This document shows, one piece after another, positions 1,340 through 18,861 of a stretch of DNA of 26,993 bases. Within the stretch, counting starts at the first letter, position 1, and every line of letters begins with the position of its first letter. The DNA is taken from IMG/VR virus record IMGVR_UViG_3300007520_000064, positions 1-26,993 of that record; one strand, 5' to 3'. The DNA is from a virus. Under the pieces are notes generated by a model. The model worked only from the letters and a program-made list of their open reading frames with translations. It did not search any database and had not been told where the DNA came from. The position numbers and the translations under genes are program-made.

Positions 1340-3371
1340 AGCAAATAACCTAAATAATTATTTTGGTAATGCAAACCTAAAGGGCGCCAATGTAACAATT
1401 GATTGGACGCCAGAGATGGTTAAAGAATGGGTCAAATGTAAAAATGATCCATTATACTTTGCAAGAAATTATATTAAGATTGTACATCTAGACAATGGTC
1501 TAATAACGATTGAGCCATACGAATATCAAGAAGAAATTATACGTAAGTTTGAAAATACACGTAGACTAATTATCGTTGCTTCGCGCCAATGCGGGAAAAC
1601 AACGACCGCTACTATTATTATTTTACATTACATTTTGTTTAATGATCATAAACGAGTTGCGCTGTTAGCAAACAAAGGTGACTCTGCTCGTGAGATTTTA
1701 GATCGTATTCAAATTGCATTTGAAGGACTGCCGTACTGGTTACAGCAAGGTGTAGTACAATGGAACAAGGGATCTGTTGAACTAGAAAACGGATCACGTG
1801 TTATTGCTGCATCTACATCTTCAAGCGCAATTCGCGGTAAGTCTATGAACTTGTTATACATCGATGAAACTGCATTTATTGAAGGGTGGGAAGACTTTTC
1901 GGCTTCAGTATTACCAACTATTTCATCTGGTGTAACAACTAAACTATTATATACATCTACACCAAATGGATTGAACCATTTTTATAAAACCTATATGGGT
2001 GCTAAGCAAGGCACAAATGGTTTTGATTATGTAGAGATACCTTGGACAAGAGTTCCTGGTCGTGATGAGGCATGGAAAAAAGAAGCACTTGGCGGTATAG
2101 ATAATGATATGCAAAAGTTTGACCAAGAATATTCTTGTGTAACTGGCGATACAATTGTGACTGTTAAAGATAAATCAACTGGTGAAATTAAAAATATAAC
2201 TATTGAAGAGTTTGTCCAGATACAAAATAATTATGAAATTTTAACACATGAAGGATTCAAACCGTTTGATGGGATTAAACGGAGTTTATCTAATTCACTA
2301 GTGTTTATTGAAACTACATCAGGAAAAAAATTAAAATGTACAAGAGATCATTTAATTTGCATTGGAAACGAATATGTTGCGGCTGAGAGTTTAGTTGTTA
2401 GTAACACTATACTTACTAAAGACGGCGTAGAAAGTATAAAAATTAAAAAATATGTTAATGAAGAACAATATGTATATGATGTATTAGAAGTTAAAGATAC
2501 TAATGCATATTATACTAATGATATAATAAGTCATAATTGTGAGTTCCAGGGCTCGTCTGGTACTCTTATATCTGGTGCAAAGCTAAAAGAACTCGTTCCT
2601 ATGGACCCTATTATTTGTAAAGATAGTATGTCAATGTATGAGCGATATAAAAAAGAACATCAGTATGTATGTGTCTGCGATGTATCACGAGGCAAAGGTC
2701 TAGACTATTCTGCATTCTCAATTATTGATGTTACGCAAATGCCGTATAAGCAGGTATTCGTATTTAAAGATAATATGATTACTCCAACAGAATATGCAGA
2801 GGTTATATATCGTACATGTAAGTCTTATGGCGAATGCGCAGTTCTAGTAGAGATTAACGATATTGGCCAACAAGTATCAGATTCGTTACACAATGACTAT
2901 GAATATGAGAATATACTTTATACCGAAAGCGCAGGCCGATCTGGTAAACGTATTTCAAGTGGATTTGGTAAAGGCGCAGATTCTGGTATAAGAACTACTA
3001 AAAGTGTTAAGGCAGTTGGTTGTAATATGTTAAAGCTAATGGTAGAACAGAATCAATTGATTATCAATGATATGAATACTATTAATGAGTTGTCTAGATT
3101 TTCACGCAAAGGGCTTTCATATGAAGCAGAGTCTGGTGCAAATGATGACCTTGTTATGACACTAGTGTTATTTAGTTGGTTATCAGATCAACAATACTTT
3201 AAAGATATTACTGACATCAATACATTAGCAAACCTACGTGAAAAGTCAGAAGAAGATCTTATGTCTGAGCTTACACCATTTGGTTTTTATGATAATGGAA
3301 TTGCAGAAGAAGTCATATATGAAGGTCGAGAAATGTGGACCGTTGTACCAGGGTCTGGGGAATTGTACTGA
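1320..3371 (+). CDS. 17: Terminase large subunit gp17 precursor, interrupted by an intein
   Basis: Packaging motor ATPase and headful nuclease. The ATG at 1320 overlaps the end of gene 16; a TTG at 1311 in frame is a weaker choice. The precursor is 683 residues. ATPase domain: Walker A SRQCGKTT (about residues 88-95), Walker B LLYIDE with the following AFIEGW (about 178-188) and coupling motif TSTPNG (about 213). Nuclease domain: three acidic sites in CDVSRGKGLDYSAF, VLVEINDIGQ and ANDDLVMTLVLFSW, matching the D, E and D of T4 gp17. Residues 273-406 are an intein (separate entry) placed between the two domains, at EYS|CEFQGSSGTLISG. Removing it leaves 549 residues, normal for marine T4-like TerL. 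Splicing should be needed for packaging, because the insert separates motor from nuclease. No frame disruption is seen. Confidence 0.96.
   Translation: MTTTTLKANNLNNYFGNANLKGANVTIDWTPEMVKEWVKCKNDPLYFARNYIKIVHLDNGLITIEPYEYQEEIIRKFENTRRLIIVASRQCGKTTTATIIILHYILFNDHKRVALLANKGDSAREILDRIQIAFEGLPYWLQQGVVQWNKGSVELENGSRVIAASTSSSAIRGKSMNLLYIDETAFIEGWEDFSASVLPTISSGVTTKLLYTSTPNGLNHFYKTYMGAKQGTNGFDYVEIPWTRVPGRDEAWKKEALGGIDNDMQKFDQEYSCVTGDTIVTVKDKSTGEIKNITIEEFVQIQNNYEILTHEGFKPFDGIKRSLSNSLVFIETTSGKKLKCTRDHLICIGNEYVAAESLVVSNTILTKDGVESIKIKKYVNEEQYVYDVLEVKDTNAYYTNDIISHNCEFQGSSGTLISGAKLKELVPMDPIICKDSMSMYERYKKEHQYVCVCDVSRGKGLDYSAFSIIDVTQMPYKQVFVFKDNMITPTEYAEVIYRTCKSYGECAVLVEINDIGQQVSDSLHNDYEYENILYTESAGRSGKRISSGFGKGADSGIRTTKSVKAVGCNMLKLMVEQNQLIINDMNTINELSRFSRKGLSYEAESGANDDLVMTLVLFSWLSDQQYFKDITDINTLANLREKSEEDLMSELTPFGFYDNGIAEEVIYEGREMWTVVPGSGELY
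2136..2537 (+). other. Mini-intein in terminase large subunit (134 aa, no endonuclease)
   Basis: In-frame protein insert within gp17. Block A is CVTGDTIVTV with the nucleophile Cys1 (codon 2136-2138). Block B is KLKCTRDHLICI with the T-x-x-H pattern. Block F is YVYDVLEVKDTNAYYTND, and block G is IISHN with penultimate His and terminal Asn, followed by Cys+1 (2538-2540). All catalytic positions of a class 1 intein are present, so it is probably active. At 134 residues there is no room for an endonuclease domain. The flanks EYS and CEFQGSSGTL rejoin to a normal TerL sequence. Its middle part (ILTHEGFKPFDGI) resembles the start of the C-fragment of the known split TerL intein from Ace Lake metagenomes, but here the intein is continuous. 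Confidence 0.94.
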
Positions 3372-9972: not shown

Positions 9973-11343
9973 ATGTTTAACGCAGAACGATTAGTAGAAA
10001 AATGGGCTCCAGTTTTGGAAGCCGAAAGCGCACCAGCTATTGGTGATAAGTACAAGCGTGCAGTAGTTGCTGCCGTTTTAGAAAACACAGAAAAGGCTCT
10101 TGCTGAAGAGCGTGGCCAAGCCATGTTCATGAATGAAGCTGCGCCTACAAATGCAACTTCAGGCGGTACTGGTGCAATCAGTAACTGGGATCCTATCTTG
10201 ATCTCATTGGTTCGCCGCGCAATGCCTAACTTGATAGCATATGATATTGCTGGTCTCCAGCCTATGTCAGGTCCTACAGGTTTGATTTTTGCAATGAAGT
10301 CACGCTACAAAGACAATGCCAATCGTCTAAATGCGACTGAAGCATTGTTCAATGAAGCAGATAGTGACTTCAGTTCAAGCTCATTCAGTGGTGTTACTGC
10401 TACAGCTAAGAATGGTACTCATGCTGGTGATTCTTCATCGCTTGGTACTGACGTTGTTCCTACTGGCGGTGACGGTGTTGCTGATAACTTTGGTTTTGGC
10501 GGCGGCATGACTACTGCTCAAGCAGAAGCCTTGGGTGATGCGTCAACTAATGCATTTGGTGAAATGTCATTCACTATCGAGAAAGCAACTGTCACGGCTA
10601 AGTCACGCGCCCTGAAAGCTGAATACACGATGGAATTGGCACAAGACTTGAAAGTAGTACATGGTCTTGACGCAGAAGCCGAATTAGCAAACATTTTGTC
10701 TGCTGAAATCTTGGCCGAAATTAACCGTGAAATGATTCGTACAATCAACTCACGCGCTAAGCTTGGTTCACAACAGTCAGATTTGACTAGCAATGGTGTG
10801 TTTGACCTTGATACAGATGCAGATGGCCGTTGGTCAGTTGAGAAGTACAAAGGTTTGTTAGTTCAATTGTCACGCGAAGCAAACGTTATTGCACGTGAAA
10901 CCCGTCGCGGTAAAGGTAACTTCATCATCTGTTCGTCAGACGTTGCTACTGCATTGTCTGCAACCGGCATGTTGGATTATACTCCGGCCTTGGCTGCTAA
11001 TGCAAACTTGGCTATTGACGACACTGGCAATACTTTTGCTGGTATCCTCAAAGGTGGTATGAAGGTTTATGTTGATCCATATACCGAAGTTAACTATATC
11101 ACTGTTGGCTATCGTGGCGCATCGCCATATGATGCAGGTATTTTCTATGCACCATATGTACCTCTCACGATGGTTCGTGCGGTTGGTGAAAATAACTTCC
11201 AACCAAAAATTGGCTTCAAAACTCGCTACGGCATGGTTGCGAATCCATTTGTTGGTGCAACACCTTCGAACGACATTGGTACTGCTCGCGGTAACCAATA
11301 CTACCGTATCTTTAAGGTTGAGAACATCCTCGGCGATGGTTAA
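9973..11343 (+). CDS. 23: Major capsid protein gp23 precursor
   Basis: 456 residues; HK97-fold hexamer subunit. Conserved segments: LVEKWAPVLE, the LISLVRRAMPNLIAYDIAGLQPMSGPTGLIFAMKSRY block (T4 has VRRAIPNLIAFDICGVQPMNSPTGQVFALRAVY), the FTIEKATVTAKSRALKAEYTMELAQDLK E-loop region, AEILAEINREMIRTI, and the C-terminal NPF-VGATPSNDIGTARGNQYYRIFKV. The N-terminal roughly 55 residues are a helical delta-region probably removed by gp21. The LAE at about residue 45 and FMNE|AAP at residue 55 both look like gp21 cleavage sites; the second fits the position in T4 best. The ribosome site AAGGAG is 10 bases before the ATG. Codon choice is enriched for TTG/AAC/GGT compared with neighbours, as expected for the most expressed gene. 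Confidence 0.97.
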   Translation: MFNAERLVEKWAPVLEAESAPAIGDKYKRAVVAAVLENTEKALAEERGQAMFMNEAAPTNATSGGTGAISNWDPILISLVRRAMPNLIAYDIAGLQPMSGPTGLIFAMKSRYKDNANRLNATEALFNEADSDFSSSSFSGVTATAKNGTHAGDSSSLGTDVVPTGGDGVADNFGFGGGMTTAQAEALGDASTNAFGEMSFTIEKATVTAKSRALKAEYTMELAQDLKVVHGLDAEAELANILSAEILAEINREMIRTINSRAKLGSQQSDLTSNGVFDLDTDADGRWSVEKYKGLLVQLSREANVIARETRRGKGNFIICSSDVATALSATGMLDYTPALAANANLAIDDTGNTFAGILKGGMKVYVDPYTEVNYITVGYRGASPYDAGIFYAPYVPLTMVRAVGENNFQPKIGFKTRYGMVANPFVGATPSNDIGTARGNQYYRIFKVENILGDG

Positions 11344-11369: not shown

Positions 11370-11395
11370 AAGGGGGAACTTCGGTTCCCCTTTTT
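11370..11395 (+). terminator. Intrinsic terminator after gene 23 (UUCG tetraloop)
   Basis: Ten-pair stem: AAGGGGGAAC (11370-11379) with GTTCCCCTTT (11384-11393), including one G-T, closed by a C(UUCG)G tetraloop (the loop bases are 11380-11383), and continuing into a T-tract to 11395. Very stable; it ends the capsid transcript and insulates it from the endonuclease gene. Confidence 0.93.
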
Positions 11396-11399
11396 GTTA

Positions 11400-11428
11400 T
11401 TGTAGAAATTCTGTATTTGATATATAAT
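11400..11428 (+). promoter_or_regulatory. Sigma70-like promoter for the homing endonuclease gene
   Basis: TTGTAG (11400-11405), a 17-base spacer, then TATAAT (11423-11428), 30 bases before the ATG. The -35 is only a half match to TTGACA. It follows the terminator directly, so the endonuclease would be transcribed separately and early rather than with the capsid genes. Confidence 0.6.
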
Positions 11429-11458
11429 AGTATATTGCCATAACAGGATTTTAAGCCA

Positions 11459-12952
11459 ATGAATTATTCAATTACACCAATCATCTTTCGTGATAAACGT
11501 TATAATTCTATAAAAGAAGCAATCGAACAAACGGGTCTGTCACGATACAATATCAAGAAAGAATCTATATATGTCAATAGCACTGATGCACAAAAGTTTC
11601 AAGACTTTGGCCGTGCTCCAAAAACTATATCAGTGTTGCCTACAAAGGAACAAACGATTGTTACATATAAAGGTTCTGTTCGTAAGGCTGCGCGTCAGTT
11701 AGGCATAACAGAACCTATTATGAATCAACTGCTGACACAATACAATATACCAAAAATATCTTTGTCTGAGGCTATTATATTGAAGTCAGACAACCGCCGG
11801 CCAACAAAAGAACATTTACTTAAAAATTATAATATGCGTTCTGTCGAGCAATTATGTGCTTATTATCATGTTGGCCGTTCAAAGCTATTCCGTTGGTTTA
11901 AGCAATACGACATTGCGATTCGTTCGCTTGGCGAAACTGCTTCTATTAAAACAAAACTTCGACATGAAATGATTAGGCCAACAAAGGAAGTTTTAGAGGC
12001 GCATTATAAGAAAAATAATATATATGAAATAGCTTTGGAATATGGTGTCGACAAACACGTAGTTTCTGGTTGGTTGAACGAGCATGGTATTGAAGTAAAC
12101 CTTATGTCATCACGCGCAGAGACTGAACTGTTTGAATTTTGTCAGAGTCTTGATGATTCGTTTATACGGAATGATCGTAAAATTATTGGGCCATTTGAAC
12201 TAGACATTGTTTCAACTAAACATAAACTTGCAATTGAATATTGTGGTATTTACTGGCATGCTGAAATTAGTGGCGGCAAATCGCGTTCATACCATAGAAA
12301 CAAATATATTGCATGTAAAGAAAAAGGTTACACACTTATTACTGTATTTGAAACTGATGACATACATAAGGTAAAAGATCTTATTCGTACAAAGGTTGGA
12401 TCTAACAAACGTATATATGCACGTAATACAATTATTAAAGAAATCGATACAAAGACTGCCAGACACTTTCATGAGTCATATCATCTTAGCCAATTTGTAG
12501 GTGGAGAACATATTGGTCTATACTATGGCAATGAACTAGTAATGGCCGTTGCATTTAGCAAATCAAGATACTCTAAAAAATATCAATATGAATGTGGCCG
12601 TATGACTAGTCACGGAGACTATACTATTGTCGGCGGAGCATCAAAGTTGTTCAAATATTTTATGATATCACGAAATGCATCATCATGCGTGACATATGCA
12701 GATCTGAGGTTTGGTGAAGGCAAAGTGTATGAATACTGTGGTTTTGTACGTCTAAGTGATAGTGGCCCAAATTACTACTATATAAACCCTTTAAAAACAA
12801 TGGCTTACTCACGGGTAAAGTATCAAAAACACAAGTTAAATGCACTATTACCTATCTATGATAAAACACTTAGCGAATCACAAAATATGTTCAATAATAA
12901 ATATGATCGTATATTTGATTGTGGCAATGCTGTCTATGCCTGGTATAAATAA
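11459..12952 (+). CDS. Free-standing Vsr-like homing endonuclease with N-terminal DNA-binding repeats
   Basis: 497 residues. The N-terminal part holds several short helix-turn-helix-like modules: a NUMOD1-like unit near residues 8-35 (RYNSIKEAIEQTGLSRYNI), a second (GSVRKAARQLGITEPIMNQLL), and two that each open with RPTKE and end in a W-F/L-x-x-x-I/G pattern (about residues 115-155 and 176-214). The nuclease core follows: AETELFEFC (about 217), GPFELDIVSTKHKLAIEYCGIYWHAE (about 244-269) and HRNKYIACKEKGYTLITVFETDD (about 280-305). This is the Vsr / very-short-patch-repair type PD-(D/E)XK fold with the catalytic Asp in ELDIV. A C-terminal domain (IGLYYGNELVMAVAF, VGGASKLFKYF, YADLRFGEGKVYEYCGF, PNYYYI) is shared by phage endonucleases of this family. 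It acts as a selfish element that cuts unoccupied alleles. It is inserted between genes 23 and 12978, with its own promoter. Confidence 0.88.
   Translation: MNYSITPIIFRDKRYNSIKEAIEQTGLSRYNIKKESIYVNSTDAQKFQDFGRAPKTISVLPTKEQTIVTYKGSVRKAARQLGITEPIMNQLLTQYNIPKISLSEAIILKSDNRRPTKEHLLKNYNMRSVEQLCAYYHVGRSKLFRWFKQYDIAIRSLGETASIKTKLRHEMIRPTKEVLEAHYKKNNIYEIALEYGVDKHVVSGWLNEHGIEVNLMSSRAETELFEFCQSLDDSFIRNDRKIIGPFELDIVSTKHKLAIEYCGIYWHAEISGGKSRSYHRNKYIACKEKGYTLITVFETDDIHKVKDLIRTKVGSNKRIYARNTIIKEIDTKTARHFHESYHLSQFVGGEHIGLYYGNELVMAVAFSKSRYSKKYQYECGRMTSHGDYTIVGGASKLFKYFMISRNASSCVTYADLRFGEGKVYEYCGFVRLSDSGPNYYYINPLKTMAYSRVKYQKHKLNALLPIYDKTLSESQNMFNNKYDRIFDCGNAVYAWYK
12944..12951 (+). promoter_or_regulatory. T4-type late promoter inside the 3' end of the endonuclease gene
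   Basis: Exact TATAAATA that also encodes the last codons (Trp-Tyr-Lys-stop) of the endonuclease. It lies 27 bases before the ATG at 12978 and would drive the gp19-fold gene and its downstream neighbours late in infection. Confidence 0.65.
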
Positions 12953-12977: not shown

Positions 12978-13490
12978 ATGCCAATATATGATAAACCGAA
13001 TACGCTTAACAGTCCTGCAAATTTGACAGCTAATCCTTCGTTTGCAATGCCTATGAATTTTAGACTAACTATTGATGGTCTAAAATATAAGAACGTAATG
13101 TTTTCAGTTCAACGTGTAACCATACCAGATATTACTGCTCAGTTTGCTCAGGTAAACTATCGAACTACTAATCTTGGTGTTCCAGCAGATAAGATAACAT
13201 ATTCTGATTTAGAGTTATCGTTTATGGTCGATGAAGACTTTACGAACTATCGAGAAGTACACGACTGGTTATTTGATAATGTTGCCGTAGATGATTCGCC
13301 GACAGCAAATAAAACAAAAGATATATCATTGATTGTATTGAGTTCACATTACAATCCGGTACTAGAGTTTAAGTTCGTTGATGCATATCCTACTAACTTA
13401 GGCGCAGTACAATTTGATTCAACCGTAGCAGATGTAGAGTATCTAGTTGCATCGGCCACTTTTAAATATTCTTACTTTAGGATTATATAA
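12978..13490 (+). CDS. Tail-tube-fold structural protein (gp19 family relative; gene 3 position of marine T4-like phages)
   Basis: 170 residues. It has the same plan as gp19: an opening strand NFRLTIDGLKYKNVMFSVQRVTIPDIT, then a beta loop ending DKITYSDLELSFMVDEDFTNYREVHDWLFD (like GDRTF...VTVMND...FVDW), and the end KFVDAYPTNLGAVQFDSTVADVEYLVASATFKYSYF (like T4 WPTNVGELQLD...FEVTLALDYWE). It is therefore a paralogue of the tube protein, for example a tube initiator, terminator or baseplate tube ring. In marine T4-like genomes the gene between 23 and uvsY is commonly annotated as gene 3 (tail completion); I cannot confirm that identity from sequence. Its stop overlaps the next ATG by one base. 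Confidence 0.75.
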   Translation: MPIYDKPNTLNSPANLTANPSFAMPMNFRLTIDGLKYKNVMFSVQRVTIPDITAQFAQVNYRTTNLGVPADKITYSDLELSFMVDEDFTNYREVHDWLFDNVAVDDSPTANKTKDISLIVLSSHYNPVLEFKFVDAYPTNLGAVQFDSTVADVEYLVASATFKYSYFRII

Positions 13491-18168: not shown

Positions 18169-18369
18169 ATGGTACTGTTTAAGACTATCAGATGGAAAAA
18201 CTTTTTATCTACTGGAGATGCATTTACTGAAGTATCATTAAACCGTTCGCCTAGTACATTAATTGTAGGAGAAAACGGCGCAGGCAAATGTGTTGATAAA
18301 CTTACTGAAATAGAGGTAGAATTTGAATCAGAAGAAATAAAGCAATTATATTTAAAACATCTTTCCTAA
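18169..18369 (+). CDS. 46: gp46 N-terminal fragment fused to a split-intein N-fragment
   Basis: 66 residues. Residues 1-40 are the start of the Rad50/SbcC-like ATPase gp46: FKTIRWKNFLSTGDAFTEVSLNRSPSTLIVGENGAGK, which stops inside the Walker A loop (T4: NIMSVGQNGIDIQLD...TLITGRNGGGKST). Residues 41-66 (from Cys codon 18289) belong to no ATPase and read as an intein N-fragment. The ORF ends at TAA 18367. Alone it cannot bind ATP, since the Ser/Thr of the P-loop is on the other ORF. Together with 18490-20469 it forms a fractured gene rejoined by protein trans-splicing (inferred). Confidence 0.88.
   Translation: MVLFKTIRWKNFLSTGDAFTEVSLNRSPSTLIVGENGAGKCVDKLTEIEVEFESEEIKQLYLKHLS
18289..18366 (+). 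other. Split-intein N-fragment (26 aa) in gp46
   Basis: Starts with Cys1 directly after the P-loop Lys. The block A pattern is C-V-D-K-L-T-E-I-E-V-E, comparable with the C-L-S-Y-E-T-E-I-L opening of DnaE inteins. A charged helix-like tail (ESEEIKQLYLKHLS) follows, then the stop. A break this soon after block A is the atypical split position known from the Ace Lake TerL split intein (about 25 residues), not the usual position near residue 100 between blocks B and F. Confidence 0.85.
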
Positions 18370-18489
18370 CCATTGATGTTTATGTACAAAAAATGAAATA
18401 CAAAGAATCAACATTTAATGCTAAGATATTATGGCATCAGCGAGATTATAAATCTTTTTTAGAAAATATTTTAATATGAGTAATACATT
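18370..18489 (+). other. 120-base gap between the two halves of gene 46
   Basis: The two halves are in the same frame, but five in-frame stops (18367, 18394, 18460, 18472, 18481) separate them, so simple read-through is excluded. The frame one base back (positions divisible by 3) is open from 18327 to TGA 18477-18479. A T-TTA-AAA heptamer at 18351-18357 is in the right register to shift ribosomes into it. That frame ends ATGA at 18476, opening a five-codon minicistron which itself ends ATGA at 18490, the start of the second half. GAG at 18478-18480 is the only Shine-Dalgarno-like site. No late octamer, only TATAAATC at 18447. Confidence 0.6.
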
Positions 18490-18861
18490 ATGAAAACTAC
18501 TGTCGGTGATATCGCTTCTTTCTATGCAAAGTATCCAGAACTTATTGGCACTATTAAAGTAAAAACTAGATTTGGTTATAAAAAAATTGAGGGTGCTGCA
18601 ATTACTGCAAAAAATTCTATAGTTCATAGCATTAAAACAGAATCTGGCGAGCATATAAAAACATCACCAGACCATTTAATGTTAGGCAATGATTGTGCAT
18701 GGGTAAAAACAAAAGACTTATATGTTGGTAATTTTTTATTTAATTCAAATGGTCCAACCAAAATTATTAAACATAAAATTTTAAAAACTCGTCAAGACTT
18801 ATATGATATACAAGTAGAAGATGTAAAAGAATATTTTGCTAATGGGTTGGTATCACATAAT
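18490..18861 (+). other. Split-intein C-fragment (124 aa) in gp46
   Basis: Starts with its own ATG (MKTTVGDIASFY). Contains the post-A strand region (GTIKVKTRFGYKKIEGAAITAKNS), block B HIKTSPDHLML (S-P-D-H in the T-x-x-H place), a KTKDLYVGNFL turn, block F DLYDIQVEDVKEYFANG and block G LVSHN with terminal Asn before Ser+1. All catalytic residues are present. With the 26-residue N-fragment it makes a 150-residue mini-intein without an endonuclease domain. Confidence 0.9.

Follow-up and report, generated by a model that had tools for sequence, protein, structure and literature searches.

The locus described here raises the question of what its nuclease moves. The window, that is the whole stretch of DNA analysed (a virus record of 26,993 bases), covers a gene cluster of a T4-like phage for head, tail and replication. 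It encodes a free-standing nuclease between gene 23 for the major capsid protein and a tail-tube gene, as well as two inteins, in TerL and gp46. Does the nuclease spread these inteins in trans, as a preliminary description of the sequence had proposed, or does it serve its own gene, and where would the home of that gene be?

Domain architecture of the nuclease

The reading frame is uninterrupted from the ATG at 11459 to the TAA ending at 12952 (Table 1), and the gene is intact in three contigs of the window species, L002 and L003 among them. Its 497-aa product matches the PHROG 3339 family 'homing endonuclease' (E=2.9e-87) and also PHROG 559. Homologues were found in 405 of 50,697 phage records, many of them annotated as Hef-like, and a DNA-level search of the phage collection gave capsid-gene matches only. 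Judged by its sequence, the ORF is an intact free-standing homing endonuclease and a member of the already known Hef family.

Table 1. Positions of the nuclease gene, its domains, its neighbours and the two inteins in the window
Feature	Position	Strand	Evidence or remark
TerL mini-intein, 134 aa, contiguous, without endonuclease	2136..2537	+	
Gene 23, major capsid protein	9973..11343	+	PHROG 138, E=2e-159; target region proposed at its 3' end
Hairpin resembling a terminator, with T run, between gene 23 and the insertion	11373..11395	+	read from the sequence
Motif TGATATATAATNGTATATT before the nuclease gene	11418..11436	+	common to the three closest carrier lineages, missing in empty junctions
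Hef-type homing endonuclease gene, 497 aa	11459..12952	+	open frame, PHROG 3339
NUMOD-like DNA-binding module, residues ~8-35	11480..11563	+	Pfam PF22083 and model
Three HTH modules, residues ~61-95, ~115-150, ~174-209	11639..12085	+	repeats, model, Pfam
Vsr/EDxHD nuclease domain, residues ~218-313	12110..12397	+	alignment, PDB 3r3p, Foldseek 1cw0
Catalytic residues E247, D249, E260, H267	12197-12199, 12203-12205, 12236-12238, 12257-12259	+	
Mom-like GNAT domain, residues ~316-497 (predicted)	12404..12949	+	profile, Pfam, Foldseek, hhalign
TATAAATA, putative late promoter of T4 type for the next gene	12944..12951	+	in the last codons of the nuclease gene
Tail-tube gene (gp19 type), next after the insertion	12978..13490	+	PHROG 45, E=2.8e-34
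gp46 split intein, N part, 26 aa plus stop	18289..18369	+	
gp46 split intein, C part, 124 aa	18490..18861	+	Pfam Intein_splicing, E=2.4e-9

The protein begins with four putative DNA-reading modules, a number that the preliminary description had already given and that sequence repeats, Pfam matches and the structural model bear out. The first is NUMOD-like: it matches Pfam PF22083 (I-HmuI_NUMOD-like) with E=1e-4, below the cut-off of that family, and forms a beta hairpin plus helices in the AlphaFold2 model, which has a mean pLDDT of 87.8 for the 497-aa protein. The other three are trihelical HTH repeats, every one preceded by 'PTKE', whose Pfam matches are weak in the window protein and strong in its relative L119. 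The nuclease domain that follows has a Vsr-type fold, and its active site keeps the acidic residues and the histidine of the EDxHD/Vsr kind. E247, D249, E260, G263 and H267 are invariant in an alignment of 23 relatives; loss of the catalytic aspartate, which the preliminary description had named as an argument against its own proposal, was not seen in any of these sequences. With a profile of the 23 relatives we retrieved PDB 3r3p ('Mobile intron protein', E=1.4e-7), which we take to be the catalytic domain of I-Bth0305I, and a Foldseek search with the model retrieved Vsr (1cw0, E=2.1e-3). The relationship to I-Bth0305I is one at profile level, and that enzyme is intron-encoded, whereas the window enzyme is free-standing, with a GNAT domain in addition. 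Since PHROG assignment, alignment, the 3r3p match, the Vsr fold and the N-terminal modules all agree, the initial description of the protein as a Vsr-type homing endonuclease was right.

The GNAT domain, which takes up the C-terminal part of the protein, had been overlooked in that description. A profile of the relatives matches glyphosate N-acetyltransferase (PDB 2bsw, E=3.7e-5), and the top structure in the Foldseek search with the model is Mom of phage Mu (8bv8, E=1.2e-6). Five of the 23 relatives match Pfam Mom, L011 above the cut-off; the window protein itself gave no match to this family. In hhalign, the comparison with Mu Mom reaches E=2e-4 at a probability of 45% only, with TYADLRFGEGKVYEYCGF aligned to Mom SFADERCGRAGVVYQASNF and Mom S124 in a gapped stretch. 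One phage record names a homologue 'putative nuclease/acetyltransferase'. According to the predicted fold, the C-terminal domain is a relative of the GNAT acyltransferases, structurally nearest to phage Mu Mom.

Hef cleaves nrdB and has been reported in place of mobE between nrdA and nrdB (PMC2988022). In Salmonella phage SG1, the enzyme encoded between these two genes is 39% identical to the window protein over 267 positions, which cover both nuclease and GNAT domain. By this likeness to the SG1 enzyme and by PHROG 3339, rather than by the Hef sequence of phage U5 itself, the window gene resembles Hef (phage U5) and Hef-like genes in the C-terminal two thirds, the nuclease-plus-GNAT part. It differs from Hef at the N-terminus, where it has the NUMOD-like module and the three HTH modules, and in its home at gene 23 instead of nrdA/nrdB.

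The junction behind gene 23

In nuclease-free relatives (L027, L107), gene 23 is followed by about 100 bp and then by the tail-tube gene. We collected 75 distinct junction sequences, a set biased to relatives of the window phage and to the records fetched: 57 are empty, 8 contain a Hef-like gene (three of these belong to the window species) and 10 contain other genes, so that a free-standing gene between conserved neighbours stands beside gene-free alleles in related phages. All of the closest copies lie between gene 23 and the tail-tube gene, namely those of the same species (L002/L003), of L004/L034 (60% identity) and of L005 (60%). The copy in L119 shares 38% identity and is inverted within this interval, and in L011 and L007 a Hef-like copy is found behind gene 23. 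Further cases come from named phages, whose records were taken from hit lists and do not form a random or unbiased sample. In all of them the Hef-like gene adjoins the 3' side of the capsid gene: on the opposite strand in Acinetobacter phages Abraxas and 133, Pseudomonas phage PspYZU05, Yersinia phage TG1 and Vibrio phage 1.081.O, and on the same strand in Vibrio phages D532 and K444. In phages 133 and PspYZU05, its neighbours are genes 23 and 24. In several phage lineages that are separate from one another, the 3' junction of gene 23 is thus occupied by Hef-like genes, in one orientation or the other.

We consider it likely that the window gene is a free-standing element of the Hef family, one of intronless homing, with its home at the junction of gene 23 and the next gene, and that the 3' end of gene 23 is probably the target region. 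The preliminary description had offered this junction as an alternative target, and its recurrent occupation together with the 57 empty junctions argues for such a role. Two observations speak against it: a search with the downstream gene for a nuclease-free allele of the same species gave only nuclease-positive contigs or a fragment (L152), and no co-conversion dip was seen in genes 22 and 23 between L034 with and L027 without the nuclease.

The position behind gene 23 alone does not fix the target, because Hef relatives also occur elsewhere (beside uvsX and at the junctions of tail-tube with capsid-assembly genes, of nrdA with nrdB and of two connector genes) and because non-nuclease genes also enter the slot. 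The target of this Hef-family enzyme could accordingly lie elsewhere, the gene 23 junction being merely a tolerated landing site. We regard this as improbable: the same junction has been filled repeatedly and in both orientations, and also by a second nuclease type, as in L038, where a GIY-YIG-type gene bearing NUMOD3 is inverted in the slot behind gene 23. Moreover, the free-standing enzymes of T4 whose targets are known cut a neighbouring gene (PMC2988022, table). T4 itself carries segD between genes 23 and 24, and the target of SegD is unknown (PMC2988022). SegD thus sits in the same slot behind gene 23, and several Hef-like genes there share its reversed orientation, although as a GIY-YIG enzyme it belongs to a nuclease family unrelated to that of the window enzyme.

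Genes of unclear function that are not nucleases lie behind gene 23 in L079 and L088, in the same interval in L103 and L035, and behind the tail-tube gene in L096. As such genes enter too, the gene 23 region is a general insertion hotspot. L120, which is the window phage species (TerL 100% identical), has a second Hef-like gene, 33% identical, between connector genes that we take for gp13 and gp14 (L120:1956-3437); this segment lies upstream of the first base of the window. A Hef relative is found at the same gp13/gp14-type place in L124, though TerL of L124 is intein-free. In L034, a GIY-YIG-type homing endonuclease gene is located between the gp18 and gp19 homologues (L034:4133-4819).

Within the junction, the nuclease gene is placed between the terminator-like hairpin of gene 23 and the next gene, and equivalent hairpins are present in nuclease-free junctions. 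The motif TGATATATAATNGTATATT is common to the three closest nuclease lineages, namely the window species, L004/L034 and L005, and occurs in 0 of 57 empty junctions; it may be a promoter of the nuclease gene or a binding site. On the downstream side, TATAAATA at 12944-12951, which the preliminary description had missed, falls inside TAT-AAA-TAA, the final nuclease codons Y-K-stop. The same sequence is found in 36 of the 57 empty junctions, at a median of 36 bp before the next gene, compared with 1% of shuffled junctions. Since the gene lies between the terminator of gene 23 and the next gene, whose putative promoter overlaps it, imprecise loss would harm the phage. Promoters embedded in T4 homing genes are known and are thought to favour retention (PMC2988022).

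Inteins in TerL and gp46

Neither intein of the window carries an endonuclease; for both, the TerL intein (134 aa) and the gp46 intein (26 + 124 aa), the earlier observation was confirmed. gp46 is split within one frame into N-intein, stop, a gap of 120 bp without an endonuclease and C-intein, inserted in the P-loop at GENGAGK/S (the slash marks the insertion point). With its N part of 26 aa, this intein is atypically split like that of AceL-TerL, whose N part comprises 25 aa (PMC11766414). A frameshifted gp46 pseudogene was considered and rejected, as the halves lie in one frame and the intein C1, the terminal HN and S+1 are intact. A 27-codon ORF in the gap (window 18367-18489; MKYKESTFNAKILWHQRDYKSFLENILI) is possibly a remnant of an intein or a nuclease.

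Both inteins are polymorphic among relatives. An intein-free gp46 allele is found in L106 (96.5% identity, 601 ungapped bases) and another in L113, and between L105, L106 and the window (18289-18861) the gp46 intein is present or absent at strain level. At L184, on the contig of L106 (C1:26700-26804), a weak intein-splicing match below the Pfam cut-off lies inside an open frame of 464 aa, which belongs to a strain without the gp46 intein. The TerL intein shares 89.6% nucleotide identity with that of L035 (L035:2171-2566) and is thus far more alike than the exteins (70% and 78-79%), which indicates that it has moved between lineages. The assumption that the two inteins are mobile is therefore sound.

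Fractured TerL genes with nucleases of their own were also encountered. In L026 (323-2988), the gap of a TerL split intein holds a gene for a GIY-YIG homing endonuclease; this intein sits one codon from the TerL intein site of the window. TerL of L126 (9001-12960) apparently contains two intein insertions with separate endonuclease-like ORFs between the intein parts, one of these gap ORFs being of the T5orf172/MUG113 type.

In 2009, Dassa and colleagues reportedly described Vsr-like nucleases that belong to fractured genes with split inteins. The window enzyme is likewise Vsr-related and its genome also has a split intein. It differs from the fractured-gene nucleases in that it lies outside the split-gene gap, 5.3 kb away from it, and the 120-bp gap of gp46 is nuclease-free.

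Proposed homing, possible self-protection and competing readings

In the homing cycle that we favour, the protein would read a long DNA site with its NUMOD-like and three HTH modules, and the Vsr/EDxHD domain would do the cutting. In a mixed infection, the 3' region of gene 23 in a co-infecting phage without the gene would most likely be cut, and recombination repair off the carrier would then place a copy of the gene, with some flanking DNA, in the cut genome. Cleavage, homing and the exact target are what we infer from the data above. The Mom-like domain could protect the carrier's own target, could act as a DNA-binding scaffold, or could do neither. That Hef enzymes are self-protecting, with the Mom-like GNAT modifying adenines at or near their own target so that only unmodified co-infecting genomes are cut, appears to us a rather doubtful extension.

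The joining of a nuclease and a Mom-like domain in one protein also invites comparison with a restriction-modification-like weapon, in which the GNAT would modify the phage DNA and the nuclease would attack unmodified DNA of the host or of a superinfecting phage. Fusions of Mom-type GNAT and restriction-fold nucleases in jumbo phages, which by their description have the same domain pairing as the window protein, have been read as restriction-modification (PMC7824862). In contrast to what is described for these fusions, the genomic pattern of the window gene is that of a homing gene. Its sporadic presence, the empty alleles (57 related junctions without the gene), the modular target-reading domains and the many copies in Campylobacter phages, where 9-12 matching places per genome were found as expected for a mobile gene, all fit a homing gene better, and PADLOC returns 'homing endonuclease' alone. 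A role as a weapon is for these reasons unlikely.

The headline proposal of the preliminary description, collaborative homing in which the nuclease cuts intein-free TerL or gp46 alleles, or both, and so spreads the two endonuclease-less inteins, did not hold. Such trans homing exists elsewhere, for example between MobE and I-TevIII (PMC2988022), and the missing endonucleases, the polymorphism of both inteins and the horizontal movement of the TerL intein would suit it; we nevertheless rejected it as very unlikely because of the distribution of the elements, their distance and the comparison of the sites. The nuclease occurs without the inteins and the TerL intein without the nuclease: L034 has a nuclease copy (60%) at the gp23/gp19b junction while its TerL and gp46 are both intein-free, in L119 the nuclease is present and the gp46 intein absent, and L035, a possibly incomplete record of 87 kb, has the TerL intein but neither a gp46 intein nor a Hef-like gene. 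The nuclease gene is 8.9 kb away from the TerL intein site and not between the halves of the gp46 intein, and the TerL site, the gp46 site and the gene 23 junction share no 24-mer similarity beyond chance. As the gap genes of L026 and L126 illustrate, TerL intein sites do harbour nucleases, but these are of a different kind, GIY-YIG or T5orf172.

In T4-like phages, nuclease genes of at least two families that are not related to each other have inserted behind the major capsid gene, and in both orientations. Gene 23 is a standard marker of T4-like diversity, and gene conversion around it would therefore matter for diversity surveys. The targets of T4 SegD (PMC2988022) and of the Hef-type enzymes in this slot become testable on one substrate. 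That a homing endonuclease has a conserved Mom-like domain furthermore poses the concrete question of self-protection, which, if true, would mean that the logic of restriction-modification, contained in a single protein, serves the homing of a gene.
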